A stretch of DNA of 64,000 bases from Chloroflexota bacterium (lineage in GTDB: Bacteria > Chloroflexota > Anaerolineae > Anaerolineales > Villigracilaceae): positions 1-64,000 of the forward strand of contig JACRBH010000148.1 in NCBI GenBank assembly GCA_016234535.1. The letters run 5' to 3'. The notes below the pieces were generated by a model that was not told the DNA's origin, did no database searches, and saw only the letters and a program-made list of their open reading frames with translations. Shown in pieces: positions 29,480 through 64,000 of the stretch. Position numbers and translations under genes: made by a program. Numbering within the stretch: the first letter of the stretch is position 1; each line of letters opens with the position of its first letter.

Positions 29480-29556
29480 GGTCCCGTGGTGTAGCGGCCT
29501 AACATGCGGCCCTGTCAAGGCCGAGATCGCGGGTTCGAATCCCGTCGGGACCGCCA
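29480..29556 (+). tRNA. tRNA-Asp(GTC), CCA encoded
   Basis: ggtcccgtggtgtagcggcctaacatgcggccctGTCaaggccgagatcgcgggttcgaatcccgtcgggaccgcca folds as a cloverleaf; acceptor ggtcccg/cgggacc; anticodon GTC. Confidence 0.96.
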
Positions 29557-41357: not shown

Positions 41358-41511
41358 CCCCGTCGGGACCGCCAATAGTAAACAAAAAAACCGCCCCAAA
41401 AGGGCGGTTTTTTTGTTACTTATTGCCAGTTTTCGCGTAAAAACAGGGCTGAAAAAAAGTTACGCACCGCGAGTTCCATTATCGGGCATCTTTGTACGAA
41501 CCCGCGATCTC
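41358..41511 (+). mobile_element. Junction of cassette 1 right end and cassette 2 left end (LE2), containing a tRNA-Asp 3'-end copy
   Basis: ccccgtcgggaccgcca followed by the same terminator and end region as downstream of the intact tRNA-Asp. Confidence 0.8.
41390..41415 (+). terminator. Terminator in duplicated tRNA-Asp downstream region
   Basis: accgccccaaaagggcggttttttt. Confidence 0.8.
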
Positions 41512-42055: not shown

Positions 42056-42058
42056 ATT

Positions 42059-43270: not shown

Positions 43271-43285
43271 TTTTTTTGCCCTGAG

Positions 43286-43310
43286 TTATTTTACTCAGCG
43301 AATAAAGTAG
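43286..43310. promoter_or_regulatory. Putative ROK-repressor operator O2 upstream of the ABC operon
   Basis: ttattttactcagcgaataaagtag resembles O1 half-site tcagtgaataaagttag. Confidence 0.6.
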
Positions 43311-43390
43311 GAGGCACAAGCCATCTGACAAACATAACTTCATAATCTGACCGTCCTCAAAACTCAAAATAACTAAGGAGAAATAGAGAA

Positions 43391-44713: not shown

Positions 44714-44767
44714 AATAGATTATCATCATCAAGTCCTTGCTATGGCGAGGGCTTGACCGGAACCAGA

Positions 44768-44803
44768 AAGGCTGCGGACGGGTGTCCATCTGTCCGCAGC
44801 CTT
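44768..44803 (+). other. Intercistronic stem-loop between substrate-binding protein and permease genes
   Basis: aaggctgcggac-gggtgtccatct-gtccgcagcctt, perfect 12-bp stem. Confidence 0.8.
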
Positions 44804-44811
44804 CCAAAACC

Positions 44812-45705: not shown

Positions 45706-45706
45706 C

Positions 45707-46543: not shown

Positions 46544-46544
46544 T

Positions 46545-48134
46545 ATGCATATCGTTGATTTTTATCCCTCGCAGGGAAGCTATTCTCCTGGCGAAATTGT
46601 CACATTGTTCGTTGAAATTGAAACACCTGCTCCAAAAAACCTCTCCCTCCGAATTTTCATTCAACATCTCGCCGAGCAATCCATCGTTCTCGAACATCAA
46701 TGTCAAATTAAATCTGGATTTCAAACAATTCTAGTTAATTGGGAACCTCCTAAATCACCAGCGGGGTATTCGGCCCGTCTGTCGATCGATCCTGACATTC
46801 AAGCATCCACAGCCTTCGATGTACTTAAGAGTTGGACCGATTTTCCCCGCTACGGATTTCTATCTGACTTTAGCGCGTCTCGTTCGGACCCTGAAACTGC
46901 TCTTAAAAAACTGACGCCTTTCCATATAAACGGTCTTCAGTTCTACGACTGGCAGTATCGCCACGACCAACTATTGGCTCCCACCGAAGAATATATTGAT
47001 CCGCTCGGGCGCGCCATGTCGCTTGCCACTGTTCGGAAGTTGGTGGACACAGCCCACAAACATGGCATGGCTGCCATGCCATATCTTGCCATCTATGCCG
47101 CCTCCGCTGATTTTTGGCATGCGCATCCTGATTGGGCGCTATATGATGAAGCGGGGAAGCCGATTGCTTTTGGGGAGAATTTCCTCGGTCTAATGGATCC
47201 ATCAGCCGGCAATTCCTGGAGTCGTCACCTTTTGGAGGAAAGCGCCAAAACATTGAATGGCATTCCCTTTGATGGGTTACATATTGACCAGTATGGTGAC
47301 CCAAAAAAAGCATGGAACGCTGAACATGAGGATGTGGACCTGCCGCGCGCATTTGCTGACTTTATCCAATCCGCTTCTGATCAACATATTGATAAAACGA
47401 TCCTGTTCAACGCGGTCGGCAACTGGCCGATCGAAACCCTGGCTGAATCGGTCGTTGACTTCATGTATATTGAGATCTGGCCGCCTGATCTCGAGTATCG
47501 CCGACTTGCTGAGATCGTAGTGAACGCGGTTTGCTTATCCCATGGCAAAGCGGTTGTGATCGCACATTATCTACCGGCCGATCGCCCTGCGAATAATCTG
47601 TTGGCAGACGCGGTCATTTTAGCCTGCGGCGGTACGCGTATTGAATTGGGCGAGGATGCGCGGCTGCTGTCCGATCCCTACTTCCCCAAGCATGAAGAAC
47701 TCTCAGAAGACTTGTATTCAAACTTGAGATTGCTTGCGGATTTCGCTGTCCGCAATGGAGAATGGATAAGACCATACACATTATCAACAGCTGAGAAGGA
47801 GGTGTGGTCAAATGGCGAATTAAATCCTAAATTCATATCCATTGACGAAACCATTTTGACCTTGTTGAGGCGTCAACCAAACCTGCTAATCCTTCATATG
47901 GTTAATTTTTCCAATCTCGATCTCCATCAACAATGGGATGTGGTTCATCCCGCGCCAACACTACGCCAGAATGTTGAAGTAAAAATTAAAATGCAGCACT
48001 CGCCATCAAAAGTCATTTGGGATTGCCCCGAACAGCTTGGAGTGCAGAACGTCCCCTTTGAACAAGCCGACGGAATTTTGACAATTTACATTCCACAAAT
48101 TCATTTCACAGGGTTGGTTGTTATCCATGAATGA
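46545..48134 (+). CDS. GH66-like dextranase/cycloisomaltooligosaccharide glucanotransferase-type protein
   Basis: INGLQFYDWQYRHDQLLAP, FDGLHIDQYGDPKKAW and the overall GH66 pattern. Confidence 0.8.
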   Translation: MHIVDFYPSQGSYSPGEIVTLFVEIETPAPKNLSLRIFIQHLAEQSIVLEHQCQIKSGFQTILVNWEPPKSPAGYSARLSIDPDIQASTAFDVLKSWTDFPRYGFLSDFSASRSDPETALKKLTPFHINGLQFYDWQYRHDQLLAPTEEYIDPLGRAMSLATVRKLVDTAHKHGMAAMPYLAIYAASADFWHAHPDWALYDEAGKPIAFGENFLGLMDPSAGNSWSRHLLEESAKTLNGIPFDGLHIDQYGDPKKAWNAEHEDVDLPRAFADFIQSASDQHIDKTILFNAVGNWPIETLAESVVDFMYIEIWPPDLEYRRLAEIVVNAVCLSHGKAVVIAHYLPADRPANNLLADAVILACGGTRIELGEDARLLSDPYFPKHEELSEDLYSNLRLLADFAVRNGEWIRPYTLSTAEKEVWSNGELNPKFISIDETILTLLRRQPNLLILHMVNFSNLDLHQQWDVVHPAPTLRQNVEVKIKMQHSPSKVIWDCPEQLGVQNVPFEQADGILTIYIPQIHFTGLVVIHE

Positions 48135-49239
48135 CTTATATCAACGCAGCATCGAAATTATTCTTGAAAATCAATCCCAGAGCGGTGGTTATATTGCCAG
48201 CCCCAACTTCCCCACGTATCATTATTGCTGGTTCCGCGATGGCTCCTTCATAGCTTATGCAATGGACTTGGCTGGCGAACATGAGAGTGCGAACCGTTTT
48301 CACCTCTGGGTAGCTGAACGTGTAAACCAGCGCAAAGACCTTGTACACACAAGCATAATTAAAGCACGCTCTGGTCAAAAACTTACTGAGGAAGAAATCT
48401 TACACACACGCTATCGTCTGGACGGTACAGATGGTGAACCCGGCAACTGGCCGAACTTTCAACTGGACGGCTTTGGCACATGGCTTTGGGCGCTCAATGA
48501 ACATCAAAAACAAAACCCTGCAACAAGGCTTTCACAAGAGCTGCTATCCGCTGCCGATCTTGCGGCTGATTATTTGAGCGAACTCTGGATACTTCCCTGC
48601 TACGATTGCTGGGAGGAATTCCCAGACAATGTTCATCCGCACACGCTTGCCGCGATCTACGGCGGACTTAAGGCACATTCCGAATTGACCAGCAAGAGTC
48701 ATCAATCGGTGACGGACGCCATTCGAGATCACTTGCTTGACAGTGCGAAACCATTCGGCCACTTTGTGAAATTTTCTGATTCGTCTGCCGTGGACGCAAG
48801 TCTGCTGGCGTTGGCGGTCCCATATGGTGTTGTAGCTCCTGATGATCCGATCATGCTTAAAACTGCGGAATGCATCGAAGCGACCATACTGCACGGTGGA
48901 GGTCTTCATCGTTACGCCAAAGATTCTTACTACGGTGGTGGAGCCTGGATCCTGCTAACTGCCTGGTTGGGATGGTATTACACAGAATTATTAGAAACAC
49001 GTCCTGATATGGAATCTTCACTAAAGCAAAGGATGGAAGACTGCCGGGGTTGGATAGAAGCAAAAGCAAAGGATCAAAATTTTTTGCCGGAGCAGGTCGC
49101 TGAGAATTTAAATATCCCTGCTGAATATTCAACATGGATAGAACGTTGGGGTGAGATTGCATCCCCTCTATTATGGTCTCATGCCAAATATATTATCCTG
49201 CGGTTAAAAATTAAAGCTGGGTTTGAGAGAGATCGTTAA
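48127..49239 (+). CDS. GH15-like glucoamylase/glucan glucosidase
   Basis: SGGYIASPNFPTYHYCWFRDGSFIAYAMDLAGE, WPNFQLDGFGTWLWAL, CYDCWEEFPDNVHPHTLAAIYGGL. Confidence 0.82.
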   Translation: MNDLYQRSIEIILENQSQSGGYIASPNFPTYHYCWFRDGSFIAYAMDLAGEHESANRFHLWVAERVNQRKDLVHTSIIKARSGQKLTEEEILHTRYRLDGTDGEPGNWPNFQLDGFGTWLWALNEHQKQNPATRLSQELLSAADLAADYLSELWILPCYDCWEEFPDNVHPHTLAAIYGGLKAHSELTSKSHQSVTDAIRDHLLDSAKPFGHFVKFSDSSAVDASLLALAVPYGVVAPDDPIMLKTAECIEATILHGGGLHRYAKDSYYGGGAWILLTAWLGWYYTELLETRPDMESSLKQRMEDCRGWIEAKAKDQNFLPEQVAENLNIPAEYSTWIERWGEIASPLLWSHAKYIILRLKIKAGFERDR

Positions 49240-49267
49240 GTCTAATTTTCCTAACCTATGCTAGATT

Positions 49268-49290
49268 GTACTGGCTACTTACTCATCCGC
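49268..49290 (-). repeat. Cassette 2 right inverted-repeat arm
   Basis: gtactggctacttactcatccgc; related to 40219-40246 and, inverted, to 41884-41910. Confidence 0.6.
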
Positions 49291-49320
49291 TTAGTTTTTT
49301 TAAGGGAAACGATTTTCTTT

Positions 49321-49386
49321 GTGTCACGAGTAGACAGAAGTGGACATTTGTCTCGACTTTTAACAAGTCCGCCATCAATTGCTTGA
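49321..49386 (+). repeat. Cassette-end direct repeat copy 3
   Basis: gtgtcacgagtagacagaagtggacatttgtctcgacttttaacaagtccgccatcaattgcttg. Confidence 0.85.
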
Positions 49387-49492
49387 CTTTCTCTATGACC
49401 CCGCATAGAATGAGTAAGTCTTTACAGGAAAAACACCTAAAAAGACTCAAAATCAACTCATAGTCAGTAGGAAAATAGTTACGCTTCGCGGG

Positions 49493-49514
49493 TACGATCC
49501 CCGTCGGGACCGCT
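49493..49514 (+). repeat. Third tRNA-Asp 3'-end fragment (putative att site)
   Basis: tacgatccccgtcgggaccgct vs tRNA ttcgaatcccgtcgggaccgcc; preceded by gaaaatagttacgcttcgcggg, as at 41333. Confidence 0.75.
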
Positions 49515-49584
49515 CTTACAACTCCCCTTCTTTGGGGTAAATAATGGCAAAAACGCAGATTTAGGCTGAAGTGCCACGATTGCG

Positions 49585-51039
49585 TTATCTTGCAACCAGA
49601 CAGTTTCGATCATGACTCGAAGCTGTCTTTTTTTTTTCAATTGGTAAAGTGCTGCGCCAATCCGACAATTTCTCCTTTAGAGAATCTGTTAATGGCAATA
49701 TAACATCCAACCCCGTCTCGCGCAAGGTTTGGAGTTGTGCAGTTTCTCTATTTCTTGTTTTTTCATAATCTTCAAGCGTAATTTCTCTCAATAAATATAA
49801 ATTAGTTATCTGTTTGATATGTTCTTCAAGTTCAGATATCAAATTTACAACAACATCTGGTTTATCTGTCTTGCGCCAATTCTCTATCCAGACCAACAGA
49901 TAACTTACAAGTTCATTTTCAATTTGCTCGGCATCCACCATATGCTGGTTGCATAGACCTCTCCGATCAATTCTGGATGAATCTAAATAGAAAAATCGTT
50001 TTCTGATAGAGCTTCCTCTCATCTGCCAGCCACAAGAAGCACAATGTAATATGCCCGTCAGAGGATAGAGACGAACAACGCTCCCCTTTTTGACTCGTGC
50101 GTTTTTATCGAATAATATACGCACCTCCTTTATTCTTTGAAAAGTCTCTTGGGAAATAATGGCCTGATGTTTTCCCGGATACACAGCTTTAAGTACCCGC
50201 CTTTTATTACTGTAATACGGCACCTGACCAGTATAAAAAATATTGTTTAGCAGACTGCGCACAAAATCCTTATTTAGATCGTGGGTAATTGACTTGCCAG
50301 GTTTTCCCCGTTGACGATAGTGAATTTCGGTTCCATCTGCCAGAGTAAAGCTGCTTTTATTGACTAATTCAGCAACTCTCACTGACGAATATTTACCGGT
50401 CAAGAAGAGTTCAAAGATCAACATAACTGCATGCTGGTCTACAGGGTGTAGGATTAAAGTCCTTCCATTACCTTTGTTGGCTGATCCAAATTCTGGGCAG
50501 TAACCTGCTCCATTGACATCTTTACAATCAGAGCATAATCCTTTGCAATACCCGTAGGGTACGTTGCCATTCCAATATCCATCACGAGCACGTTGGACTT
50601 TGCCTTTGGTAGTCTCCTGGCGCAAGTTATCTATATAGATCTCGGCCAGCATGCCCAATACGGTCAACGTCAATTTTCCCCAGGGCGTCGTGAAATCCAA
50701 ACGTTCTTGTACGGAAACAAAGAAGACATTATCCTCCTTAAGCCGGTCGAGGGCATTGAGCAAACCACCAAGGTGACGATAGAAGCGGTCGATCTTGTCA
50801 ACAATAACGACATCAAACTTGCGCGCTTCGGCGTCTTCCATCAACTGTATCAGCTGCGGACGCTCACTATCGCGTTTGGCAGAGATGCCTGCGTCAGTGT
50901 AAACACCTATTATCTCCCAGCCATGATCTTCGGCATACTTGCGAATGTTATTCTCTTGAGCATCCAGGCTGAATCCATCCACTTGTTCGCGCATGGAGAC
51001 ACGCCGATAGCCTACTGCACGTAACAGAACGTTGTCCAT
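49585..51039 (-). CDS. Large serine recombinase
   Basis: Resolvase domain AVGYRRVSMREQVDGFSLDAQENNIRKYAE...VVIVDKIDRFYRH; recombinase domain; zinc ribbon CASCGWQMRG...C; Cys-rich insert YCKGLCSDCKDVNGAGYCPEFGS. Confidence 0.93.
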   Translation of the reverse strand: MDNVLLRAVGYRRVSMREQVDGFSLDAQENNIRKYAEDHGWEIIGVYTDAGISAKRDSERPQLIQLMEDAEARKFDVVIVDKIDRFYRHLGGLLNALDRLKEDNVFFVSVQERLDFTTPWGKLTLTVLGMLAEIYIDNLRQETTKGKVQRARDGYWNGNVPYGYCKGLCSDCKDVNGAGYCPEFGSANKGNGRTLILHPVDQHAVMLIFELFLTGKYSSVRVAELVNKSSFTLADGTEIHYRQRGKPGKSITHDLNKDFVRSLLNNIFYTGQVPYYSNKRRVLKAVYPGKHQAIISQETFQRIKEVRILFDKNARVKKGSVVRLYPLTGILHCASCGWQMRGSSIRKRFFYLDSSRIDRRGLCNQHMVDAEQIENELVSYLLVWIENWRKTDKPDVVVNLISELEEHIKQITNLYLLREITLEDYEKTRNRETAQLQTLRETGLDVILPLTDSLKEKLSDWRSTLPIEKKKTASSHDRNCLVAR

Positions 51040-51115
51040 TTTTATTTTTCTCCTTTCATGGGTATAATTTGTTTTGGACAGTTTTACATTTTAGTCCAAA
51101 CTTTCGGAGGCATGT

Positions 51116-51529
51116 ATGGAATCACTCGCAGCTGGACGTCGTCGAGCCAGGGCAAAAAGATTTAATCCTAAACCTTTCGCTGCCCGCCTTGACCAATTGA
51201 TAGCCGAAAGAAATATCAGTATGCGCCAGTCAGGTATTGATTCCGGGCTAGATCATGAGTCTATTCGGCGGATGAAAGCTGGTGATCGACCAGATATGAC
51301 TTATTGTATTTTGCTGGCTGATTACTTTGATATCAACCCTAATGAATTTTTACAGTTAGCTGACTGGCCAACCTTAGCCGCGTTCGATATTAAGCGAGCG
51401 AGCGCCGAAAACCTGCCCCCTGAAGCAGTGGATGTGGCACTTGATATTGCAAAAATCCCTGACCCCGGCACGCGCAAGGAAGTGGCAAAAGCAGTCCGTG
51501 TGTTGTTGAAAAAATATTTCACCAAATAG
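51116..51529 (+). CDS. XRE/Cro-type HTH regulator
   Basis: FAARLDQLIAERNISMRQSGIDSGLDHESIRRMKAGDRPDMTYCILLADYFDINPNEFL. Confidence 0.75.
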   Translation: MESLAAGRRRARAKRFNPKPFAARLDQLIAERNISMRQSGIDSGLDHESIRRMKAGDRPDMTYCILLADYFDINPNEFLQLADWPTLAAFDIKRASAENLPPEAVDVALDIAKIPDPGTRKEVAKAVRVLLKKYFTK

Positions 51530-51560
51530 AAATATCACTCAATTAAGATAAGTATACAAA

Positions 51561-51592
51561 AGAGTCCCTGCCAATAATCGGCAGGGACTCTT
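51561..51592. terminator. Terminator between convergent XRE and recombinase genes
   Basis: agagtccctgccaataatcggcagggactct. Confidence 0.8.
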
Positions 51593-51609
51593 GGATTAAA
51601 TACCAGTTA

Positions 51610-53403
51610 TTACAATCCGAGCAATTCCTTGAACGGCGCATGAGCTACTACCTCGCGCATATTTCCTTGCGAGTCAAAATAAATGACTTGAAACATCTTT
51701 CTGAGCAGATTGCGCTTCTCTCCGTTGGTCAGTTGCATCCATAACTGAGAAAAGTCCTGCAACTGCGGAAGTATTATTTGCGCTTCAGTCCGGGCAGATG
51801 GTTTTAACCCCGTCAACTGACGACCAATGTGAAGAGCTTGAGTATCAAACTCCGCCTGATCTATATGACCCTTCAGGTATAACTGACGATACCTGGTCAA
51901 TGAGGCTCGGAGGTTGTGACCCTCTCGCTCGAACTCACTCAATCCCTCTCCACTCAAGTAGTATGCCATAATGGCTTCATACCACTCCTTTGGAATGACC
52001 AGCTTTTCGATCAGGTCTTGCAGTTGCGATTCCACCTGCTCCGCACGCAGACAACTGCGCGTGTGCCTGGCAAGCAGGTCATCTGTCAGGCTATCAGCTT
52101 GCGGATGCAGCGCTGGTGTTATCCGCATGGATTTTTGTATATATCGGTTATGCAGTGTGGCACAGCGATAATAACGAGTGGCATTCTTGCCACCGGTTGA
52201 TCCGCGTAAGGGAGTCGCTCGTCCATCGTGCTGATAACACTCCCAACACTGAGCCATGCCAGTTAGCAGTGCTTCATTTCGCGGACGTGAACTTTTGGTG
52301 GGTGTCTTGCTTTTGCCTTTGCGAATTTGTTGTAGGCGTTGCCATGTTTCCACCGAGATCAATGCCTCGTGCTGTCCTTGTTGGATCTCGAGGATCTGGC
52401 GTGCGCTGATCTCTGGCCGCGGCGATTTGACCTTGTGGGGATTCTCCAGATCATCTTCCATATCCAGCGCTGGACGCGGGTAACGTGCTACCAGACCAGC
52501 ATGGAAGGGTGTTGCAATCAGCGCGCGGATGCTATCACGCGTGAAATCATTGCCCGTTTTCTTTTCGGCGGAGACACGCCTGGGTCGGAACTTCACAACC
52601 AAGCCATCAGGCAATGTGAATGTATTACGATTGAGATGGCTGGCAATCTCACGATAACTCCACTGCTGCAGGTAAAGATTTGCCACCAATGTAATCGCAT
52701 GCCGATCAATCGGATGAATGACAGGGATCCGTCCGCGTTGACTTTCAGGGTAATCGATACTACCTGCACGGGGACAATAATCAGGGCCGTGTGAGTCGTT
52801 ACACGTTGAACAAAGCCCATTGCAATAGCCAAGTGGAATATTCCCATTGTGAAGTCCACGACGTATGCGTTCTGATTTTGCCTCACGGGTGCGTTCACTG
52901 GTCTGGCGCACATACATCTCGGCCATCGCACCTAACACGTACAAAACGAGCCTCCCCCACCAGGTTTCAGGGTCAATTTGTTCGGTGACACTTACAAATT
53001 GAACATTATGCTTTTTGCATAGACGCACAAACTCCAATTGCGATTCCAGGTTACGATACAAACGATCAAGCCGATGTACAACCACCGCTTTGATGCGCCT
53101 GGCCTTTATGTCCGCGATCAATTTTTGCAGATCTTTGCGACGGCTATTCCTACCCGTTTGATACGGGTCGCTGTAGATCTTAATTTGTGAAGCGCCTTTA
53201 TCACGCGCATATGCTTCTGCGCGATCGGGCTGGATTTCCAAAGAGTAGCTGTAGCCTTGTGTCTCTTCACGGGACAGGCGGCTATAGATAGCCCAGGTTT
53301 CAACTTGCTGCCTTTGTTCTATTTGGTGAATTTCAGAGCGTATGAACAACTTGAGCTCTTCAAACGAGTTGGGTGTCTCAATGAGGTTGGTGTTCTTACT
53401 CAT
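51610..53403 (-). CDS. Large serine recombinase (second)
   Basis: WAIYSRLSREETQGYSYSLEIQPDRAEAYARDKG...VVVHRLDRLYRNLESQLEFVRLCKKHNVQFVSVTE; shared insert YCNGLCSTCNDSHGPDYCPRAGS. Confidence 0.93.
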   Translation of the reverse strand: MSKNTNLIETPNSFEELKLFIRSEIHQIEQRQQVETWAIYSRLSREETQGYSYSLEIQPDRAEAYARDKGASQIKIYSDPYQTGRNSRRKDLQKLIADIKARRIKAVVVHRLDRLYRNLESQLEFVRLCKKHNVQFVSVTEQIDPETWWGRLVLYVLGAMAEMYVRQTSERTREAKSERIRRGLHNGNIPLGYCNGLCSTCNDSHGPDYCPRAGSIDYPESQRGRIPVIHPIDRHAITLVANLYLQQWSYREIASHLNRNTFTLPDGLVVKFRPRRVSAEKKTGNDFTRDSIRALIATPFHAGLVARYPRPALDMEDDLENPHKVKSPRPEISARQILEIQQGQHEALISVETWQRLQQIRKGKSKTPTKSSRPRNEALLTGMAQCWECYQHDGRATPLRGSTGGKNATRYYRCATLHNRYIQKSMRITPALHPQADSLTDDLLARHTRSCLRAEQVESQLQDLIEKLVIPKEWYEAIMAYYLSGEGLSEFEREGHNLRASLTRYRQLYLKGHIDQAEFDTQALHIGRQLTGLKPSARTEAQIILPQLQDFSQLWMQLTNGEKRNLLRKMFQVIYFDSQGNMREVVAHAPFKELLGL

Positions 53404-53569
53404 CCTGAGTGTCCACAGCTCGGGATGATACATCTTGATCTTCGGTAGGTTGAACTACGGGCGGCAAGTCAAGCTCGACAACGCGGCCCGTGATACGACG
53501 CAGGGACAAAGCCAGTTCACGACTGAAGGATTGTATACGCTCAGAGAGGGATAAAGATTCGTTTTTCAT
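53396..53569 (-). CDS. Small protein (57 aa) overlapping the second serine recombinase start
   Basis: MKNESLSLSERIQSFSRELALSLRRITGRVVELDLPPVVQPTEDQDVSSRAVDTQDE; its stop overlaps the recombinase start (ATGAGTAA). Confidence 0.55.
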   Translation of the reverse strand: MKNESLSLSERIQSFSRELALSLRRITGRVVELDLPPVVQPTEDQDVSSRAVDTQDE

Positions 53570-53750
53570 TTTGCAAACTCCTGCTGGGAATTTGCGCAGC
53601 GCGCTACGCATGAAAGTAAAATTTTGCATGCAACAGCGCACAAGCATACCAATACCCTATTATCAAAAACAAGTGGAGATTTCTCCTATTTCTAAAACGA
53701 GTGTTGGCGTGCAAATAGCACCTTTATCACTTCTCCGGGAGATCACTTTT

Positions 53751-54269
53751 ATGATTACCAGTATCCCAAAACCAGACCCCAAACGGGCCTCGCTTACGCT
53801 TTATCTTATTGTTGCTTTGAACACAGGAGCCAAATTGGAAAGTACGATCAACAAGACCGTAGCTGCTCAAGTTCTAGCCAACTTGCTTCAAATTGATCGT
53901 AGTGCGCCTTTATCCTGGCTGCGCGGCGATTTCAAGAAGCATCCAGTCTCACGGGAGAATTTTCTGAGATTTATCAGAGCATACCGAACAAAGCCTGGGC
54001 TTGAAAACGCCAAAGAGATCACAGCATTGGCAATTAATCTTTACGGCTCAGACTACAAAAAAGCCATCGATCTTTTGGACCCAGCAGATCGTGAAAGGGA
54101 TCTGTCACAGGATTTCCAAGTTACACTGAGCGGTAAATCAAATTTGGTGACGGCGATTTGCAATTTGCTTGAGTCAAGTCCTTCAGAGGCAGTTGAGATC
54201 GCGTTCCTAACAATGATCGCGTATCGATGGTCTGCAAGCAATTCCCGTAATCGAAATTTTTTGATGTAA
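53751..54269 (+). CDS. Hypothetical protein, divergent from the recombinase operon
   Basis: Uninterrupted ORF MITSIPKPDPKRASLTLYLIVALNTG...; no confident family. Confidence 0.5.
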   Translation: MITSIPKPDPKRASLTLYLIVALNTGAKLESTINKTVAAQVLANLLQIDRSAPLSWLRGDFKKHPVSRENFLRFIRAYRTKPGLENAKEITALAINLYGSDYKKAIDLLDPADRERDLSQDFQVTLSGKSNLVTAICNLLESSPSEAVEIAFLTMIAYRWSASNSRNRNFLM

Positions 54270-54606
54270 ATCAGCGAATTACGACAAGAAGGGACTGGAA
54301 TGGGGTATATGAATTATGATTATTTCGTGTTTGCGTAATTCGTCCCGAGAGGGATTATCTGTTCGATTTCTTTATTTTGCTCTGGTCTTGTGCGATCGGT
54401 GTGGGCATTTATGCATTCGTTCGATCGCTGTTAAATTTATATCGGTGTAGTATAACGTGAGCTCATCCGTAGATAAGTTGATGATGAAGCCAAAGTCCCG
54501 ATGAAAGGATGAGGACTATTACATAAATTTTGGTTAAATCACTGATAACATTCCATGTGACATTCATCAGTGACAAAACCCCATCACTCGTCTATACTAA
54601 ACAAAC

Positions 54607-54728
54607 AAGCCTTGCAGGACTGCAATCCTGCTAGGCTTCAACATGGACTACGCGAGTTTGGCGCGTAGCGGATAGGGTGATATTAACATAATCCTACCGC
54701 CTGCGCAATTTGATGCGTGGGCGGTTTT
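54607..54728 (+). ncRNA. Candidate structured RNA/leader ending in an intrinsic terminator, upstream of the helicase operon
   Basis: Hairpin aagccttgcaggactgcaatcctgctaggctt, hairpin ctacgcgagtttggcgcgtag, then ccgcctgcgcaatttgatgcgtgggcggttttt terminator. Confidence 0.45.
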
Positions 54729-54791
54729 TGTTGTTTTCATGAATAAATGTAAACGAATATGATAACCATAATCTCCATAGGCAGATAAGTT

Positions 54792-57700
54792 ATGAATGTA
54801 TTCGACCTTCGCAACCAACTTGTTAAAGACTACAAATCATATGTTTCCAGCTTTATCCAGATCAGAGATGATCGTATTCAGTTGCACGTGGATGAGCAGC
54901 TAAAAGCAGGCTTGTTATGGCCTGAGCCACTCATTCAGCTAAACCCTGCCTTCCAACCAGCCATGTTTGTAGATGAACTGGCAGACGAGGGTGTATTACA
55001 CAAAACTTGCAAGTCGATATTTAGGAGAAAGAGTGAAAAAGATCTGAGCGGAAGCAAACTACGCTTGCACCAGCACCAGGAAGAAGCAATTCGTATCGCG
55101 CAATCAGGGAAAAATTATGTACTAACCACGGGGACAGGTTCGGGAAAATCTCTTTCTTACATTATTCCGATCGTTGATTTTGTTTTGAAGAATGGCAGCG
55201 GGAAAGGCGTCCAGGCTATCATTGTTTATCCTATGAATGCGCTTGCCAACAGTCAGCGCGGTGAGTTGGATAAATTTATCAACCTCGGATTTCCTGATAA
55301 TAAGGGTCCTGTCACTTTTGCGAGATATACAGGGCAGGAAGGGGATGAAGAAAAGAAGGAAATTATGGCGAATCCGCCTGACATCCTCCTAACCAACTAT
55401 GTCATGCTTGAATTGATCCTGACCCGCCCTGATGAACGAAAGACTCTGGTCAATGCTGCACAGGGATTGCGATTTTTAGTGTTGGATGAATTGCATACGT
55501 ATCGTGGCCGGCAGGGAGCCGATGTTGCCATGCTGGTTCGCAGGGTACGCAACACCCTGAACGCAACCAATCTCCAATGCGTTGGTACATCTGCCACTCT
55601 TTCAAGCGCAGGCGGATTTATTGATCAGCAGAAGGATGTTGCTGCGGTGGCTTCCAAGTTATTTGGTGACACAGTCCTCCCAGCAAATGTGATCGGGGAA
55701 ACTCTTCGCCGCTCAACAGTCGAGTTGGATTTTAGTGACTCCGTTCAACTGAATAATCTAAAGAACAGAATTGTCTCGTCTGAAAGCAAACTCACCAGTT
55801 ATGAAGATCTAATCAATGACCCGCTGGCAAGTTGGATCGAAAGTAACTTGGGATTGAAAAAAGACGATATGGGACGCCTGGTGCGGGCCCTACCCCGCAA
55901 AATGCTTGGGAAAGACGGAATTTCACCCATACTGAGCCGACAAACTAATCTCCCTGAGGATCAGTGCGCAGAAGCAATCGCCAGAACCCTGCTGCAGGGT
56001 TATAACGTCACGAATACTGATTCTGGCATGCCTTCTTTTGCATTCCGTTTGCACCAATTCTTCAATCGTGGCGATACAGTCTATACATCCATTGAAAAAG
56101 AAGATGAACGGCATATCACAATTCATGGGCAAAAATATGTACCTGGAGACCGTTCGCGTGAATTGCTGCCGCTTGTATTCTGTCGTGAATGCGGACAGGA
56201 ATATTATGTAGTCCGCAAAATCAAAAACAAAGATAGCGGAAAGGCTGTTTTCATTTCGCGTGAGTTCACTGATCGCAGCGATGATGACGAGACTGAAGTT
56301 GGTTACTTATATTTGTCTACAAAAAATCCCTGGCCTAAGGACACACGTATGTATGATCGCGTACCTGAAGATTGGCTGGAGGAACGCAACGGGGAAATTC
56401 AGATTAAGCAGTCCCAGAGAAAGAATATACCGCAGCCCTTCCATCTTGCCCCTTCGGGAGAGGAAATGGACAATGGCGAACACGTTCATTTCATTGAAGG
56501 AAAATTCCGCTTTTGCCTGAATTGCAGTGTCTCATACAATCCTCGCCAGGGATCTGAGTTCGCAAAATTGACCCAGCTAAGTTCAGGCGGCCGAAGCACT
56601 GATACGACCATCCTAAGTTTGACCTTGATCCGAAATTTGAGGAACGATCCCAATCTTGCAGGCAAGGATAAGGTCAAAAAATTATTGAGTTTCACCGATA
56701 ACCGTCAGGATGCCTCACTGCAAGCCGGCCATTTCAATGATTTTATCGAAATGATACTATTGCGTTCTGCGATCTATCGGGCGGTTGAACGTGCTAGTCA
56801 GGCAGGAATACATCATGACGTTCTCCCGCAAAAGGTATTTGACGCGCTTGGGTTGGATTTCTCGTTTTATGCGGTCGATCCAAATGTGCGATTTTCCCAA
56901 AGAAGCGAAACTGAACGCGCCTTGCGGGAAGCACTTGGATATCGGATTTATCGCGACCTGCAGCGCGGCTGGCGTATTACTTCACCCAACTTGGAACAAT
57001 GTGGATTGCTCGATATTGTATACACGTCACTGGATGATGTCTGTTCCACCGAAGATCTATGGGAAAAGGCTCATCCTGCTTTGGCTGGGGCTACTCTTGA
57101 AACACGGCACCATGTGTGCAAGGTTCTGCTGGACTTTATGCGCCGCGAACTTGCGATTAAGGTTGATTACCTGAACCCGATCTATCAGGAGACCTTGAAG
57201 CAACTCAGCAGTCAGCGGTTATGTCCGCCTTGGGCAATTGATGAAAGTGAAAAACTGGATCACGCGGCCATGTTATTCCCACGCTCACGCCAGAACCAGG
57301 GGAATGATGATTATGGGGGTAATGTGTACCTGTCTGCGCACGGCGGGTATGGACAATTCATTAGAAGAAACAATACCTTTCCTGAATTCAACGGCATGTT
57401 GAAGACTGATGATACAGTGTTGATTATTCAACAGATATTGGATGCGCTGCGAATCGGTGGCTTAGTGGAGATTGTCGAAGAGGCTGGCAAACAGGATGAA
57501 GTCAATGGCTATCAAGTTCCCGCTTCGGCGATGATCTGGAAGGTTGGGGATGGCGTAAAACCCTTCCATGATGTGATCCGCGTACCGCGCCTGCCTGCTG
57601 AGGGCGGGAGAACAAATCAATATTTTGTTGACTTTTATAAGAACATTGCCAACGATATGCATGGACTGGAAGCGCGCGAACATACCGCACAGGTTCCAAA

Positions 57701-59981
57701 CGAAGTCCGCGAACAGCGCGAACGCGCGTTCCGAGAAGGGAAATTACCAATCCTTTATTGCTCTCCAACAATGGAATTGGGTGTGGACATCTCCGAGTTG
57801 AATGTCGTCAACATGCGCAATGTCCCGCCCACTCCCGCAAATTATGCACAACGTAGCGGACGGGCAGGCCGCAGCGGGCAGCCCGCGTTGGTATTTACCT
57901 ACTGTACGACAGGCAGTAACCATGACCAGTATTATTTCAAACGACAGGAAAGAATGGTGGCAGGGGCGGTCACTCCTCCCAGACTGGATATTAGTAACGA
58001 GGATCTGCTACGTGCTCATGCACAGGCAGTTTGGCTGGCTGAATCGGGTTTGAATCTTGGCAAGTCTCTAAAGGACCTGCTGGATATTATGGGCGATAAC
58101 CCAACCCTCAAGGTGTTGGATTTTGTTCAAGCCGCCTTGGATTCAGAAGAAGCCAAAAAGAGAGCACTCAAGCGAACAAAAATGATCTTGGGTGAGGTGG
58201 AAGATGAGCTGAAGAAAACAGATTGGTACAGCGATGCCTGGCTCGAAGGGGTCATGAATCAAGTTCCGCAGAAGTTCAATCAGGCTTGTGAACGCTGGCG
58301 TGGATTGTACTTGGCAGCAAAGGGTCAGCAAGCCATTCAACATAAGATCGTTAATGACATGAGTCGTTCGCACACAGACCGGGAACAAGCAAAAAGGCTG
58401 CGTCAGGAAGCAGAGAGCCAGATAGAATTGCTGACCGATGCGAAGAATTTGTTGCAGTCCGATTTTTATTCCTATCGTTATTTTGCCAGTGAAGGTTTTC
58501 TGCCCGGTTACAGCTTCCCGCGCCTGCCGCTTTCTGCATTTATTCCGGGAAGGCGCATTCGTGGCGATAAGGATGAATTCCTCTCCCGCCCGCGCTTTTT
58601 GGCAATCTCAGAATTTGGACCGCAGTCGATCATTTATCACGAAGGTTCGAGATACACGATCAGCAAGGTGAATCTGCCCATCGCAGAAAGTGGCGATGGA
58701 GTGATCACAATGCAGGCCAAACACTGTCCTGTCTGTGGATACTTCCACCCAGAGTCAACGGGCAATCAGGATCGTTGCGAACGATGTAACTCACAATTGG
58801 AAGCACCGCTGACTCCCCTGTTCCGCCTGCAAAATGTTTCAACAAGACGGCGTGACCGTATCAGTTCGGATGAAGAAGAACGTATGCGGCAGGGGTATGA
58901 ACTTCGTACTGCGATACGGTTCCAGGAGACCCAGACGGGTGACCTCTCTGCGCAGTCGGCAAGTCTCATGAAAAATGGAGAAGAGCTAGCGAAGTTGACT
59001 TACGCGAGTGCTGCCACAATTTCCCGCATCAACGTTGGCTGGAGACGACGCGCAAACCAATCTCAACTTGGATTTGTTTTGGACATTGAACGCGGTTACT
59101 GGGCAAAGGAAAAAGACGAACAAAAAGATGAGCAGGGCAATCCACTATCTGCACGCACAAAACGGGTAATCCCATATGTGGACGACACCAAGAATAGCCT
59201 ATTGTTCGAGCCGACTACTCAGTTAGATGATAAACAAATGGCTTCTTTGCAAGCCGCTTTGAAATCTGCGATCCAGATCAAATACCAACTGGAAGACAGC
59301 GAGCTTTCTGCAGAGCCATTACCATCCTCTAAAGTTCGGAAGATGATCCTGTTTTATGAGTCGGCTGAAGGCGGCGCGGGTGTTTTGCGCCGTTTGCTCG
59401 ATGATGCGCAGGCTTTCGCAGGCGTCGCTAACCTGGCGTTGCAGTTATGTCATTTCGATCCTATGACTGGCGAGGACAGACTGCACGCAGATGGTGTCGA
59501 GGAAAACTGCGAAGCCGCTTGTTATAACTGCTTGATGAGCTACTATAACCAGATGGAGCACCGCCTTCTTGACAGAATAACAATCAAGAATATTTTGATG
59601 GAGCTATCTGGTACGGTAGCGAAAATATCTCCTTCAGCATTATCACGTGAAGAACACTTGAAACGATTGCATAACCTGTGCCAGTCTGACCTTGAACATG
59701 AATGGTTGGATTTCATGGAGCAGCGAAATTTGACATTGCCATCTCATGCTCAGAAGTTGGTTGAGAGCTGCCATACGCGTCCTGATTTCCTTTATGAAAA
59801 AGATTGCGTTGCCATTTACGTGGACGGTCCTCATCATGAATTTGCTTCGCGCAAAGAACGTGATACGAGCCAGACAGATTGTATGGAAGACATCGGCTAC
59901 ACCGTCATTCGTTTTGACGTAAAAGATGATTGGGACAAAATTGTCATCAAACACCCTCATATCTTTGGAGTGAAGTCATGA
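54792..59981 (+). CDS. DEAD/DEAH helicase with DUF1998-like C-terminal module and terminal nuclease-like domain (DrmA/DrmB- or DruE-like)
   Basis: Walker A TTGTGSGKSLSYI, LDELHTYRGRQGADVAML, YAQRSGRAGRSGQPALVFTY; DUF1998-like YESAEGGAGVLRRLLDDA...CEAACYNCLMSYYNQMEH; C-terminus RPDFLYEKDCVAIYVDGPHHE...ME.IGYTVIRF. Confidence 0.88.
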   Translation: MNVFDLRNQLVKDYKSYVSSFIQIRDDRIQLHVDEQLKAGLLWPEPLIQLNPAFQPAMFVDELADEGVLHKTCKSIFRRKSEKDLSGSKLRLHQHQEEAIRIAQSGKNYVLTTGTGSGKSLSYIIPIVDFVLKNGSGKGVQAIIVYPMNALANSQRGELDKFINLGFPDNKGPVTFARYTGQEGDEEKKEIMANPPDILLTNYVMLELILTRPDERKTLVNAAQGLRFLVLDELHTYRGRQGADVAMLVRRVRNTLNATNLQCVGTSATLSSAGGFIDQQKDVAAVASKLFGDTVLPANVIGETLRRSTVELDFSDSVQLNNLKNRIVSSESKLTSYEDLINDPLASWIESNLGLKKDDMGRLVRALPRKMLGKDGISPILSRQTNLPEDQCAEAIARTLLQGYNVTNTDSGMPSFAFRLHQFFNRGDTVYTSIEKEDERHITIHGQKYVPGDRSRELLPLVFCRECGQEYYVVRKIKNKDSGKAVFISREFTDRSDDDETEVGYLYLSTKNPWPKDTRMYDRVPEDWLEERNGEIQIKQSQRKNIPQPFHLAPSGEEMDNGEHVHFIEGKFRFCLNCSVSYNPRQGSEFAKLTQLSSGGRSTDTTILSLTLIRNLRNDPNLAGKDKVKKLLSFTDNRQDASLQAGHFNDFIEMILLRSAIYRAVERASQAGIHHDVLPQKVFDALGLDFSFYAVDPNVRFSQRSETERALREALGYRIYRDLQRGWRITSPNLEQCGLLDIVYTSLDDVCSTEDLWEKAHPALAGATLETRHHVCKVLLDFMRRELAIKVDYLNPIYQETLKQLSSQRLCPPWAIDESEKLDHAAMLFPRSRQNQGNDDYGGNVYLSAHGGYGQFIRRNNTFPEFNGMLKTDDTVLIIQQILDALRIGGLVEIVEEAGKQDEVNGYQVPASAMIWKVGDGVKPFHDVIRVPRLPAEGGRTNQYFVDFYKNIANDMHGLEAREHTAQVPNEVREQRERAFREGKLPILYCSPTMELGVDISELNVVNMRNVPPTPANYAQRSGRAGRSGQPALVFTYCTTGSNHDQYYFKRQERMVAGAVTPPRLDISNEDLLRAHAQAVWLAESGLNLGKSLKDLLDIMGDNPTLKVLDFVQAALDSEEAKKRALKRTKMILGEVEDELKKTDWYSDAWLEGVMNQVPQKFNQACERWRGLYLAAKGQQAIQHKIVNDMSRSHTDREQAKRLRQEAESQIELLTDAKNLLQSDFYSYRYFASEGFLPGYSFPRLPLSAFIPGRRIRGDKDEFLSRPRFLAISEFGPQSIIYHEGSRYTISKVNLPIAESGDGVITMQAKHCPVCGYFHPESTGNQDRCERCNSQLEAPLTPLFRLQNVSTRRRDRISSDEEERMRQGYELRTAIRFQETQTGDLSAQSASLMKNGEELAKLTYASAATISRINVGWRRRANQSQLGFVLDIERGYWAKEKDEQKDEQGNPLSARTKRVIPYVDDTKNSLLFEPTTQLDDKQMASLQAALKSAIQIKYQLEDSELSAEPLPSSKVRKMILFYESAEGGAGVLRRLLDDAQAFAGVANLALQLCHFDPMTGEDRLHADGVEENCEAACYNCLMSYYNQMEHRLLDRITIKNILMELSGTVAKISPSALSREEHLKRLHNLCQSDLEHEWLDFMEQRNLTLPSHAQKLVESCHTRPDFLYEKDCVAIYVDGPHHEFASRKERDTSQTDCMEDIGYTVIRFDVKDDWDKIVIKHPHIFGVKS

Positions 59982-62830
59982 GTTTCGCCGTAGGGTCCCT
60001 CGTAAAAGCGCGTGGCCGTGAGTGGGTTGTTCTGCCCGAGTCGGATGAACAGCTGCTGGTTGTGCGCCCCTTGGGCGGAACAGATCAAGAGATCGCAGGG
60101 ATTTATCTACCGTTGGAAAAAGTGGAGCAGGCACGGTTTGACTTGCCCGATCCATCCTTGACTGGCGATTACCTTTCAGCACGATTACTGCGTGATGCAG
60201 TTCGACTTGGATTTCGATCCAGCGCTGGGCCATTTCGTTCGTTTGCACGCCTGGCGTTTGAGCCGCGACCTTATCAGCTTGTGCCGTTGTTGATGGCATT
60301 GAAACTTGATCCTGTGCGTATGTTGATCTCGGATGACGTGGGTATTGGCAAGACAGTTGAAGTGGGGTTGATCGCGCGTGAATTGCTTGACCGCGGCGAA
60401 GTGGATCGGTTGGCTGTGCTTTGTCCGCCGCAACTTGCCGAGCAATGGCAGGCTGAACTGCGAGACAAATTCCACATCGAAGCGGAACTGGTGATGGCAG
60501 GAACAGCCGCGCGGTTGGAACGTAATGCGGCGTTGGGTCAATCATTGTTTGATCTGCACCCTTACGTGATCGTCTCGATGGACTTTATCAAATCAACTAC
60601 CAGACGGGATGAGTTTTTTCGTACCTGTCCCAAGTTGGTGATCGTGGATGAGGCGCATACATGCGCGCGCGCCGAGGGACGCGGACGGCAGCAGCGTCAT
60701 CAGTTGATCAGCGGGTTGGCGAAGAATCCAGACAGGCACATTATTCTGGTGACGGCGACCCCACATAGTGGAAAGGAAGAAGCGTTTCGTTCGCTCCTAT
60801 CCATTTTAGATGAGGACTTTGAAAATCTGCCCGATGATATGACGGGACCTGAAAACGAAAGGCATCGCCGCAGGCTGGCAATGCAATTTATTCAGCGCCG
60901 CCGCGCGGACATTCGCAGTTATATGGATGCGGATACGCCCTTCCCAGAGCGAGAGGAAGCCGAAGATACTTATAAGCTTTCGCCTGAGTATAAGAAATTA
61001 TTTGACCGCGTTTTAGAATATGCTCGAGAGACCGTGCGTGACGTTCAGGATACAAGCAAGAATCAATTTCATCTGCGAGTGAAATGGTGGTCTGTGCTGG
61101 CATTACTGCGTTCGCTGGCTTCAAGCCCTGCGGCAGCGGCGGCGACCTTGCGTAACCGCGCAGCAACTGCGGAAGCGGAGACTGTGCAAGAAGCTGATGA
61201 AATTGGCAAGCGCACCATTCTCGATATGATGGAAGATGAATCTGCTGAAGGCATGGATATTGTGCCTGGCAGCGATTTGGGCGGGGATGAAGAGGAATCG
61301 GTATCCAACCGCCGCAAGTTGTTGGAGATGGCGCGGATTGCCGATACGCTGGTCGGTGAAAAAGACGAAAAACTAAACAAAGCAATTAAGTTGGTAAAAG
61401 AGTTAGTCAAGGATGGTTATCGCCCGATACTATTTTGCCGCTTCATCCCAACAGCAGACTACGTAGCCGAGGCGTTGCGTAAGGCATTGCCAAAAGGTGT
61501 GGAAGTGGCTTCCATCACAGGGACTTTGCCGCCTTCTGAGCGTGAAGTGCGGATTGCGCAAATGGGAGAGTCAGAGAAACGCGTGCTGGTCTGCACAGAC
61601 TGTTTGAGCGAAGGCATTAACCTTCAGGATAATTTTGATGCGGTGGTGCATTACGATCTCTCCTGGAACCCGACCCGTCACGAGCAGCGCGAAGGGCGTG
61701 TTGACCGCTTTGGACAGAAGACTCCCAAGGTGCGTGTGCTGACTTATTACGGTCTGGACAATCAGATCGATGGTATTGTGTTGGATGTGCTCCTGCGCAA
61801 ACATCGCACGATTCGCAGTTCGCTGGGAATTTCTGTTCCTGTGCCCGTGGATACTGAAAACGTAGTGGAAGCGATCTTCGAGGGCCTGCTGCTGAAATCA
61901 AAGCCAAGCGCGATGGATAATTATCTGCCTGGCTTTGAAGAATTCATGCGACCCACGCGCGAAGATTTATACGGAAAGTGGGATGCGGTCACCGAGCGCG
62001 AGAAGCGTTCGCGGACTTTGTTTGCGCAAGAGACAATCAAAGTGGAAGAGGTTTCGCGTGAGCTGCAATCGGCACAGGATGCAGTTGGTTCAGGCGTGGA
62101 CGTGCAATCTTTCACCCGCAATGCTTTGCAGATGATCGGCGCGAGTGTGCAGGGAACTTCCCCCATTCAAGTGGATGTGACCGAAGCGCCGCAGGGATTG
62201 AAGGACTTGCTCAATCAATCGCTTGGCTCAGGCTACAAGCCGAAGTTTTCTGCCCGTTTTGATCTGCCCATTAAAGACAAGGAATATTATCTAACCCGCA
62301 CACATCCGATGATCGAAAGCCTTTCATCGTTTACTTTGGAAAACGCATTGGACCCGTTGAATGGAAAAGATGCAAAGAATCCCGCCCGAAGATGCGGCGT
62401 GATTCGCACAAAGGCAGTGGAGAAACGTACAACGGTGTTGCTGGTGAGGTTCCGTTATCACATCATCAAGGAAAAGAAGGGCGAGGAAAATAAACCTTTG
62501 CTCGCAGAAGAGTGCGGACTTTTGGCATATAGAGGCGCACCAGAAAATGCAGAATGGTTGAGCAAGGATGAAGCCGAGAAACTCTTGCAGGCTGCCCCTG
62601 ACCAAAATGTGAATCCCGACCAGGCGCGTGACTTTGTGCAAAGGGTGATTGATGGCTTTGACGCTTTGCGCCCACATTTAGACGAGACTGCCAAGCAGTT
62701 GGGCGAACAATTGCTGAATGCACACCAGCGTGTGAGACTGGCTTCTAAGCAAAAGGGCATACAGACGCACGTGGAGCCCAACCTCCCGCCCGATGTGCTT
62801 GGGATTTATGTATTTTTACCGAAAATCTAA
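59978..62830 (+). CDS. SNF2-type helicase (HepA/DrmD-like)
   Basis: LISDDVGIGKTVEVGLIARELL, VIVDEAHTCARA, ILVTATPHSGKEEAF, SEGINLQDNFDAVVHYDLSWNPTRHEQREGRVDRFGQ; start overlaps upstream stop (ATGA). Confidence 0.9.
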   Translation: MSFAVGSLVKARGREWVVLPESDEQLLVVRPLGGTDQEIAGIYLPLEKVEQARFDLPDPSLTGDYLSARLLRDAVRLGFRSSAGPFRSFARLAFEPRPYQLVPLLMALKLDPVRMLISDDVGIGKTVEVGLIARELLDRGEVDRLAVLCPPQLAEQWQAELRDKFHIEAELVMAGTAARLERNAALGQSLFDLHPYVIVSMDFIKSTTRRDEFFRTCPKLVIVDEAHTCARAEGRGRQQRHQLISGLAKNPDRHIILVTATPHSGKEEAFRSLLSILDEDFENLPDDMTGPENERHRRRLAMQFIQRRRADIRSYMDADTPFPEREEAEDTYKLSPEYKKLFDRVLEYARETVRDVQDTSKNQFHLRVKWWSVLALLRSLASSPAAAAATLRNRAATAEAETVQEADEIGKRTILDMMEDESAEGMDIVPGSDLGGDEEESVSNRRKLLEMARIADTLVGEKDEKLNKAIKLVKELVKDGYRPILFCRFIPTADYVAEALRKALPKGVEVASITGTLPPSEREVRIAQMGESEKRVLVCTDCLSEGINLQDNFDAVVHYDLSWNPTRHEQREGRVDRFGQKTPKVRVLTYYGLDNQIDGIVLDVLLRKHRTIRSSLGISVPVPVDTENVVEAIFEGLLLKSKPSAMDNYLPGFEEFMRPTREDLYGKWDAVTEREKRSRTLFAQETIKVEEVSRELQSAQDAVGSGVDVQSFTRNALQMIGASVQGTSPIQVDVTEAPQGLKDLLNQSLGSGYKPKFSARFDLPIKDKEYYLTRTHPMIESLSSFTLENALDPLNGKDAKNPARRCGVIRTKAVEKRTTVLLVRFRYHIIKEKKGEENKPLLAEECGLLAYRGAPENAEWLSKDEAEKLLQAAPDQNVNPDQARDFVQRVIDGFDALRPHLDETAKQLGEQLLNAHQRVRLASKQKGIQTHVEPNLPPDVLGIYVFLPKI

Positions 62831-62859
62831 CCCAATAAACTCGCTGGAAATCGAAAAAC

Positions 62860-64000
62860 ATGAAAATCGATGATGATCTTGTAAGGCAAGCCACAAAGTT
62901 GCTAAAACAAAATGAAAAGGAATCAGCCCGGTCCCTTTTGAAAAGGGCTTTAATAATCAACCCCAAAAACGAAAAAGCCCTGTTGAAGCTGGCAGATATT
63001 GCTGAAAAACTCAACTTGCGATTGAAATATCTAAACGATGCCCAAAAGATCAGTCCAACCGATTCTCATATCCAAATTGAGATCTTAAATACCAAAGAAA
63101 AGATTAAAGAGCATAGACGATCTTTTTGGAACAGAACTAATATCTTCATAGCTGTCTTAAGTTCTCTGGTGACCATCATTTCGTTTCTATGGTTCCAAAT
63201 AATCCCGACATTTAATCACACTACTCCTAAAATGTCGGGAGAATGGAATGTTGCAGTGGCAGGCTTTGCCAATCTTGATACCGATCTGCAAAGCGCTGAT
63301 GTTGAGTTGATCCAGAATGTTTTTTTCAATCGGTTTAAACAGGAGATGCAGGATTTGGGCGACAATGCCAATCTGGTTGTTCAAGTAAGGGGGGCTGACC
63401 GGTTTACATCCATTTCCGGTGGTAGTGCTGAAGAACGGGCTTCTGAGGCTGGAAAATTGGCAAACGAGATCAATGCAGATATGGTTATCTATGGCAATGT
63501 CCAGCAAGTTGAGGATGGCTATGTGTTGCAGCCCGAGTTTTATATACGCGCTGAAAACTATTATGAAGCCGAAGAACTGATCGGTCAACACCGTTTCGGC
63601 GGACCGATTTCGATATTGGCGACCCGTGATACCCTGCCTTCCCAAATTCAGCTCAATATTGAACTGACGCGCCGCTCAAAGATACTAGCCTTGGTAACGC
63701 GCGGCTTGAGTTTATATCTTATTCATTCATATGATCAGGCGTCCCAATTTTTCACACAAGCCAACCAGGACGATCTATGGCAAAATTCAATTGGCAGGGA
63801 GTCAGTTTACCTGTTTCAAGCCAACGCAGCCCTTCAACAACAAAAATATGATCAAGTAATATTGGCGTTGGATCAAGCAATTAAAATTAATCCTGATTAT
63901 GGGAGAGGGTATATTGGGTTGGGAATTGTCCATTATATACTTGCCTCAGAATCTGCCAACCAGATATCCTTTACTCCCGATGGTCAGGAACTTAGGTTGT
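62860..64000 (+). CDS. TPR-containing single-pass membrane protein, truncated by window end
   Basis: Open frame to the window edge (absent from the ORF track because no stop is reached): MKIDDDLVRQATKLLKQNEKESARSLLKRALIINPKNEKALLKLADIAEKL..., TM FIAVLSSLVTIISFLWF, later TPR units. Confidence 0.7.
   Translation, partial: MKIDDDLVRQATKLLKQNEKESARSLLKRALIINPKNEKALLKLADIAEKLNLRLKYLNDAQKISPTDSHIQIEILNTKEKIKEHRRSFWNRTNIFIAVLSSLVTIISFLWFQIIPTFNHTTPKMSGEWNVAVAGFANLDTDLQSADVELIQNVFFNRFKQEMQDLGDNANLVVQVRGADRFTSISGGSAEERASEAGKLANEINADMVIYGNVQQVEDGYVLQPEFYIRAENYYEAEELIGQHRFGGPISILATRDTLPSQIQLNIELTRRSKILALVTRGLSLYLIHSYDQASQFFTQANQDDLWQNSIGRESVYLFQANAALQQQKYDQVILALDQAIKINPDYGRGYIGLGIVHYILASESANQISFTPDGQELRL

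Follow-up and report, generated by a model that had tools for sequence, protein, structure and literature searches.

According to the Islander paper, only tyrosine integrases are known to target transfer RNA genes (tDNAs), and serine integrases are not (PMC4383910). Here we analyse a stretch of 64,000 nucleotides (positions 1 to 64,000 of contig JACRBH010000148.1, assembly GCA_016234535.1, Chloroflexota, Villigracilaceae; hereafter the window), in which two large serine recombinase genes, with a helix-turn-helix (HTH) gene between them, adjoin a 3' fragment of a tRNA-Asp gene. We call the recombinases RecA and RecB; these names are labels only and unrelated to the homologous-recombination proteins. 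Our analysis indicates, with a probability of roughly 0.86, that RecA-HTH-RecB is the integration module of plasmid-like integrative islands of Chloroflexota which target tRNA genes and exchange the tail of RecA on integration.

Several described systems resemble the RecAB islands. The tDNA islands of the Islander paper are alike in having an intact tRNA gene at one end and a 3' fragment at the other, with the tRNA restored, but are assigned to tyrosine integrases only (PMC4383910). A sequence-only reading of the window had already remarked that tRNA targeting is unusual for serine integrases and more typical of tyrosine integrases, and the Islander paper agrees. The ssrA islands of Dehalococcoides, with the recombinases DsiA and DsiB, share with the RecAB islands a Chloroflexota host, a pair of serine recombinases, a T-loop crossover (in the transfer-messenger RNA, tmRNA), tandem islands, and an attachment (att) site that at one end lies inside the integrase gene, dsiB (PMC3146451). 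Their target is tmRNA (ssrA), whereas RecAB islands use tRNA-Asp and tRNA-Ser; DsiA is small (~200 aa) and has no DNA-binding domain, whereas RecB is full-length (607 aa) with a Recombinase domain; and DsiB has a shorter stretch with two Cys in place of the four-cysteine (Cys4) insert of RecA and RecB. The RecAB islands thus have neither the ssrA target nor the small DsiA partner of a Dsi module.

The staphylococcal cassette chromosome elements (SCC, SCCmec), with CcrA and CcrB, are similar in having two adjacent large serine recombinases, an island at the 3' end of a conserved gene, tandem elements and primase-type replication genes aboard. Their target is a protein gene, unlike that of RecAB. 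The nearest NCBIfam models, CcrB and XisF, did not come near their cut-offs (CcrB: 140.6 bits, cut-off 900), and the window proteins are not equivalogs of CcrA, CcrB or CcrC by this measure. We know of no Cys4 insert described for Ccr. In the serine-type integrative and conjugative elements at streptococcal rumA and in the tyrosine-type phage Mx8, att lies inside the integrase gene and integration changes the C-terminus of the enzyme, which in Mx8 becomes less active (PMC4701971). These elements have a single integrase and differ in recombinase family and target, and the new tail of RecA is antisense tRNA. Among the open-access papers searched we found none on this tRNA-targeting paired family.

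Results

The RecAB locus

The following features of the window make up the RecAB locus and its target.

49585..51039, minus strand: recA-type large serine recombinase, 484 aa as annotated, C-terminus frameshifted; Resolvase, Recombinase and zinc ribbon domains
49479..49637, minus strand: recA continuation, out of frame past the A10 run, ending in LRVMIETVWLQDNAIVALQPKSAFLPLFTPKKGSCKSGPDGDRTREA and a stop; crosses the tRNA-Asp fragment into the right end of cassette 2
50494..50547, minus strand: RecA Cys4 insert, residues 165-182, CKGLCSDCKDVNGAGYCP, C-x3-C-x2-C-x8-C; predicted local distance difference test (pLDDT) 90-96
51116..51529, plus strand: 137-aa HTH protein with a weak HTH_26 match, encoded between recA and recB; same place in most family loci
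51610..53433, minus strand: recB-type large serine recombinase, partner of RecA, 607 aa; Resolvase and Recombinase domains
52771..52824, minus strand: RecB Cys4 insert, residues 204-221, CNGLCSTCNDSHGPDYCP
49500..49513, plus strand: crossover core and tRNA-Asp 3' fragment, CCCGTCGGGACCGC; serves the RecAB element as left att and cassette 2 as right att
49516..49525, plus strand: P' motif of the RecAB element, TTACAACTCC; fits the family left-end pattern, core followed by NNNTACAAC
29480..29556, plus strand: intact tRNA-Asp(GTC), the target in common; core at 29541-29554

The presence of two large serine recombinases here, as stated in the sequence-only reading, was confirmed by Pfam matches to PF00239 (Resolvase) and PF07508 (Recombinase), with PF13408 (zinc ribbon) in RecA. 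The Ser nucleophile and Arg residues (S15, R13, R85 and R88) are kept in at least 90% of 54 family members, and Foldseek searches matched the Bxb1 and phiC31 integrases, with Bxb1 and other serine integrases the best matches for the overall fold of the AlphaFold model. The description of the two proteins as otherwise divergent does not hold: they are 35% identical over 356 aa (E 1e-64) and belong to one clade.

The annotated recA gene of the window loses its frame at a run of ten A (T10 on the plus strand, 49628-49637). In a genus relative, genome G316, a recA copy of 94% identity has GATAAAAAAAG at this run and its open reading frame extends into tRNA-Asp, within which it stops; the frame is also intact through the equivalent region in G112, G302 and G344. 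Unbroken, the frame of the window would continue as LRVMIETVWLQDNAIVALQPKSAFLPLFTPKKGSCKSGPDGDRTREA, cross the fragment core at 49500-49513 and stop at 49479-49481. The ~70 bp reported earlier to separate the first gene from the third tRNA fragment are thus a frameshift artefact; the reported tRNA-Asp 3' fragments (at 41359 and 49500) and intact tRNA (at 29480) are all present. Judged from the sequence comparison, the window recA is either truly mutated or carries a one-base assembly error. A programmed frameshift was ruled out because the relatives carry A7 in frame.

Bounded islands and empty sites

We delimited ten islands at both ends, two of them against an empty site. The right end was sought beside tRNA-Asp in G112, G302 and G344 and was not there; the true right ends came to light once dgt, which natively follows tRNA-Asp (in the order dgt-greA-topA), was located. 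In the complete genome G112, dgt lies 48 kb from tRNA-Asp and a second core copy at 2975781 closes the island, followed by the sequence that is found directly 3' of tRNA-Asp in the empty-site genome G336. The left flank of the G112 island is 98.9% identical to G336 over 1575 bp, and the right flank matches the tRNA-proximal sequence of G336 at 90.6% over 170 bp, with rearrangement beyond. The second empty site is the uninterrupted tRNA-Ser(CGA) of G354, to which the right flank in G356 is 94% identical over 445 bp. Right ends were also found for islands at tRNA-Ser in G354, G355, G356, G357, G359 and G360, and G302 has a G112-type right end on a separate contig. Element sizes were 43.9 kb (G112), 46.9 kb (UTCFX1) and ~122 kb (Longilinea).

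These elements have the layout of tDNA islands, with an intact tRNA at one end, the displaced 3' fragment at the other and an uninterrupted site in a relative, but in all of them a serine recombinase and not a tyrosine integrase stands at att. The right ends of different islands have genes in common at fixed distances (ParA, ParM-like, primase, FtsK-like, Replic_Relax and DnaA_N), which points to a plasmid-like island backbone.

The far end of the Longilinea island (G350:C1:1014153-1014336) has three 85-bp tandem repeats that hold the tRNA-Ser 3' core, and a similar 73-bp triplicate follows another tRNA on G354:C41. An extra core copy on contig C13 was considered as the right end of the window element and rejected; it is an end of the GTTACGC-type cassettes described below.

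Position of attP within recA

attP was rebuilt in silico by joining both ends of the ten islands. Each island carries an inverted pair of motifs of ~10 bp either side of the 14-bp core, the right-arm motif 14 nt before it and the left-arm motif 2 nt after it; the motifs vary from island to island and agree within each island. At that one offset the dyad matches at 75 of 100 bases, compared with 16-36 at unrelated offsets, and in 20,000 permutations of the pairing between left and right arms this total was never reached. The crossover falls at the border of T-loop and T-stem of the tRNA.

Across the joined ends, recA stays in frame past the core for 24-38 codons in 10/10 elements, reading for instance GPDGR-KFQHYCDGIELLPPGIQKSEALTILDYRRKRDLK and GEGGR-SSATYPPEPIILLPGTSVQEALLIIEHRQKLKETSP. 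The conservation of this tail (BLOSUM) was 25.9 in the recA frame, but at most 7.7 in the other frames and 2.5 ± 1.0 in shuffles; all ten bounded elements thus have att inside the integrase gene, with a tail conserved in the recA frame only. An 11th element, in G344, which belongs to the window's own subfamily, also encodes the RecA tail. With attP so placed in the 3' part of recA, integration exchanges the RecA C-terminus.

Distribution and inheritance of the module

A scan of ~85,000 species genomes with an alignment of A and B as query yielded 49 insert-family loci, all in Chloroflexota records, among them the cultured hosts Ornatilinea apprima and Longilinea arvoryzae. Viral contigs yielded two insert-bearing loci. 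Collections of phages and plasmids gave only distant serine integrases (<60%, mostly ~27% among the matches listed).

The usual order, RecB, HTH, RecA with the recA end facing outward, is kept both within the genus and across Chloroflexota; G316 has two such modules, one at tRNA-Asp and the other at tRNA-Ser. The HTH gene sits between the recombinases and is part of a RecA-HTH-RecB unit. Insert-bearing proteins form one clade (support 0.95), which is divided into A and B clades save for a few deep-branching pairs, with weak support for either (A 0.65, B 0.27). The distances among A and among B proteins correlate (Mantel r 0.88, 0/5000 permutations), and the trees are congruent. Phylogeny and neighbourhood, proposed earlier as a check, agree in one clade, a recurrent A-H-B order and co-inheritance of the two genes.

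At its 3' end, recA reaches into or adjoins an intact tRNA gene (Asp GTC, Ser GCT or Ser CGA) in 23/51 loci; in a further 11/51 the contig stops at this end, and in 6/51 a peptide of the tRNA fragment is left. Since recA reads into the tRNA antisense, C-termini such as GPDGIRTRDLGLDRAAC are antisense tRNA.

In L191:6127-10179 and L196:6083-10167, ~2.2 kb interrupts recA in the same codon region in both genomes, which raises the question of an intron or another element. In L099:10451-10600 (G328), the 3' half of tRNA-Ser is partly duplicated in tandem, adjoining recA.

The Cys4 insert

Both recombinases carry CxGLCxxCxDxxGxxYCP between the catalytic and recombinase domains, where the sequence-only reading had placed it (there as YC.GLC..C.D..G..YCP..GS); YCxGLCxxCxDxxGxxYCP was confirmed in both. 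Because the Cys spacing of 3-2-8 is found in 53/54 family members, sharing of the insert is not due to chance. The structure prediction suggested as a check yielded an ordered loop (AlphaFold, pLDDT 90-96), and the zinc finger proposed with it is plausible but unproven. The insert may be a small metal-binding loop, common to both enzymes, at the junction of catalytic and DNA-binding parts.

Serine recombinases that lack the insert likewise occur in the phylum with ends in tRNA-His, tRNA-Lys-like, tRNA-Asp-like or tmRNA sequence, which argues that the insert is not the cause of tDNA targeting and that such targeting predates it or reaches beyond it. Targeting of tDNAs by serine recombinases thus seems to extend beyond the Cys-insert family. 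Insert-less large serine recombinases at or near tRNA-His, tRNA-Lys, tRNA-Asp and tmRNA were seen at L007, L012, L018, L021, L009-L014 and L024.

Neighbouring cassettes and cargo

The remaining features belong to two integrase-less cassettes and to the cargo of the RecAB element.

41359..41372, plus strand: second 3' fragment of tRNA-Asp, where cassette 1 ends and cassette 2 starts; P motif GTTACGC at 41337-41343, not of RecAB type
49478..49484, plus strand: P motif GTTACGC, right end of cassette 2; RecAB-like geometry, motif differs
53490..64000, plus strand: RecAB element cargo, with a 259-aa protein of unknown function, a DruE/DpdJ-like helicase (1729 aa), a DpdE-like helicase (966 aa) and a TPR protein

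The cassettes (29557-49513) stand at tRNA-Asp and have a left end (terminator) and a right end (GTTACGC arm) in common. Their motif agrees at 8-10 of 10 bases with the left ends of other tRNA-Asp elements, in G328, G046, G324, G018 and G338, and further GTTACGC cassette ends occur in the source genome (G000:C13:9788) and in a relative (G331:C2:3569). No integrase for them was found: the non-family large serine recombinases of G000, G324, G018 and G338 end at no tRNA-Asp. In the cassette left ends (~29630-29695 and 41450-41512), the tRNA-Asp T-arm recurs in inverted form (GAACCCGCGATC) after a second GTTACGCACCGCG site, possibly as an inverted att remnant. Cassette 1 also encodes a 1272-aa nSTAND1 and WD40 protein (33355-37173).

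The RecAB element runs on to the contig end (71396). Its DruE-like and DpdE-like helicases (54792-62830), near the recombinases, suggest a defence system.

Discussion

Our results agree with the earlier view that the pair is an integration module at tRNA-Asp whose genes are inherited together. Pairing, tRNA overlap, element ends, empty sites, att dyad and conserved tail were read from sequence; enzymatic activity, division of labour, metal binding and any effect of the tail swap are inferred. RecA would recombine attP, an inverted repeat of ~50 bp inside the recA 3' end, with the 3' part of a tRNA gene (tRNA-Asp GTC, tRNA-Ser GCT or CGA) at the T-loop/T-stem border, for which the bounded elements and empty sites provide indirect support. 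The 14 bp from the crossover to the tRNA 3' end would be duplicated, so that the tRNA is rebuilt. Integration would sever the native C-terminal tail of RecA (24-38 aa), which would remain at the island's far end, and RecA would gain a new tail read antisense from the tRNA. In genome G072, RecB is absent while RecA, the HTH protein and both element ends are present, which makes RecA the likely integrase and core enzyme. RecB, a co-inherited paralogue, probably aids excision or direction by analogy with CcrA/CcrB, and the HTH protein, which we infer to be a regulator or directionality factor, probably regulates or directs the switch.

Integration at the tRNA might instead be carried out by a tyrosine recombinase near the right end, with RecA and RecB as resolvases or passengers. 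tRNA genes are the classic target of tyrosine integrases, and the islands of G112, UTCFX1, G357 and G359 each encode a Phage_integrase protein, 3-8 kb inward of the right end. We nevertheless regard this as very improbable: no tyrosine recombinase was found in the 20 kb adjoining the right end of G350, G354 and G356, the conserved tail that spans attP is supplied by recA and not by a tyrosine gene, the recA 3' end stands at tRNA across the family, and the dyad geometry fits a serine-integrase attP. An obligate heteromer, in which each recombinase would act on a different half-site (A on attP and B on attB or the other arm), is a doubtful though conceivable arrangement; co-inheritance and congruent trees of A and B speak for it, as does the precedent of CcrA/CcrB in SCC as described in PMC3146451, but both attP arms carry the same motif and one bounded element has RecA without RecB.

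The sequence-only reading had proposed that the pair also moves the neighbouring cassettes in trans. Cassettes 1 and 2 indeed have the tRNA target, the 14-bp core and the tandem layout of the RecAB element, and their P motif is equally far from the core. However, GTTACGC agrees with the GTTGTA-type left ends of RecAB elements (window, G316, G344) at only 4-5 of 10 bases, which is background level, the cassette right ends encode no RecA tail, unlike those of RecAB, and G046, where a left end of the GTTACGC type occurs, lacks PF07508 genes altogether. Mobilization of the cassettes by RecA and RecB is therefore unlikely. A different att sequence flanking the relatives had been named as evidence against the proposal; the kind of att, tRNA, proved the same in the relatives, and it is the P motifs that differ.

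Some observations weigh against RecA-HTH-RecB as a tRNA-targeting integration module. In 11/51 loci there is no tRNA at the recA 3' end; some of these genes are broken, and others form a distant clade (L185-L188) that lacks both HTH and RecB. The RecA of the window is itself frameshifted, by mutation or assembly error, and the right end of its element was not found in its metagenome-assembled genome. The symmetric arms of attP do not in themselves require two different enzymes, and action at the tRNA by the tyrosine recombinase that some elements carry near their right end is conceivable in principle.

A more speculative idea, which we consider rather unlikely, is that the recombinase itself keeps a record of integration: full-length RecA of the circular island would integrate, but once it carries the tRNA tail RecA would lose this ability and depend instead on RecB and the HTH protein, with the Cys4 insert perhaps as the gate. 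The CX3CX2C spacing of the insert could hold an iron-sulphur cluster and not zinc; if true, excision in these largely anaerobic bacteria would be sensitive to redox state.

As far as genome comparison can tell, our findings show that serine recombinases target tRNA genes across Chloroflexota, contrary to the reference statement that tyrosine integrases alone do so. With attP and attB mapped exactly in several genomes, including that of cultured Longilinea arvoryzae, the family provides new candidate integrases for tRNA landing sites. The swap of the RecA tail for antisense tRNA would be a compact natural case of integration rewriting its own enzyme, and explains the GIRTRD-type C-termini in the automatic annotation of such genes. 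The recA end and the tail offer a means to bound hidden islands in Chloroflexota genomes.

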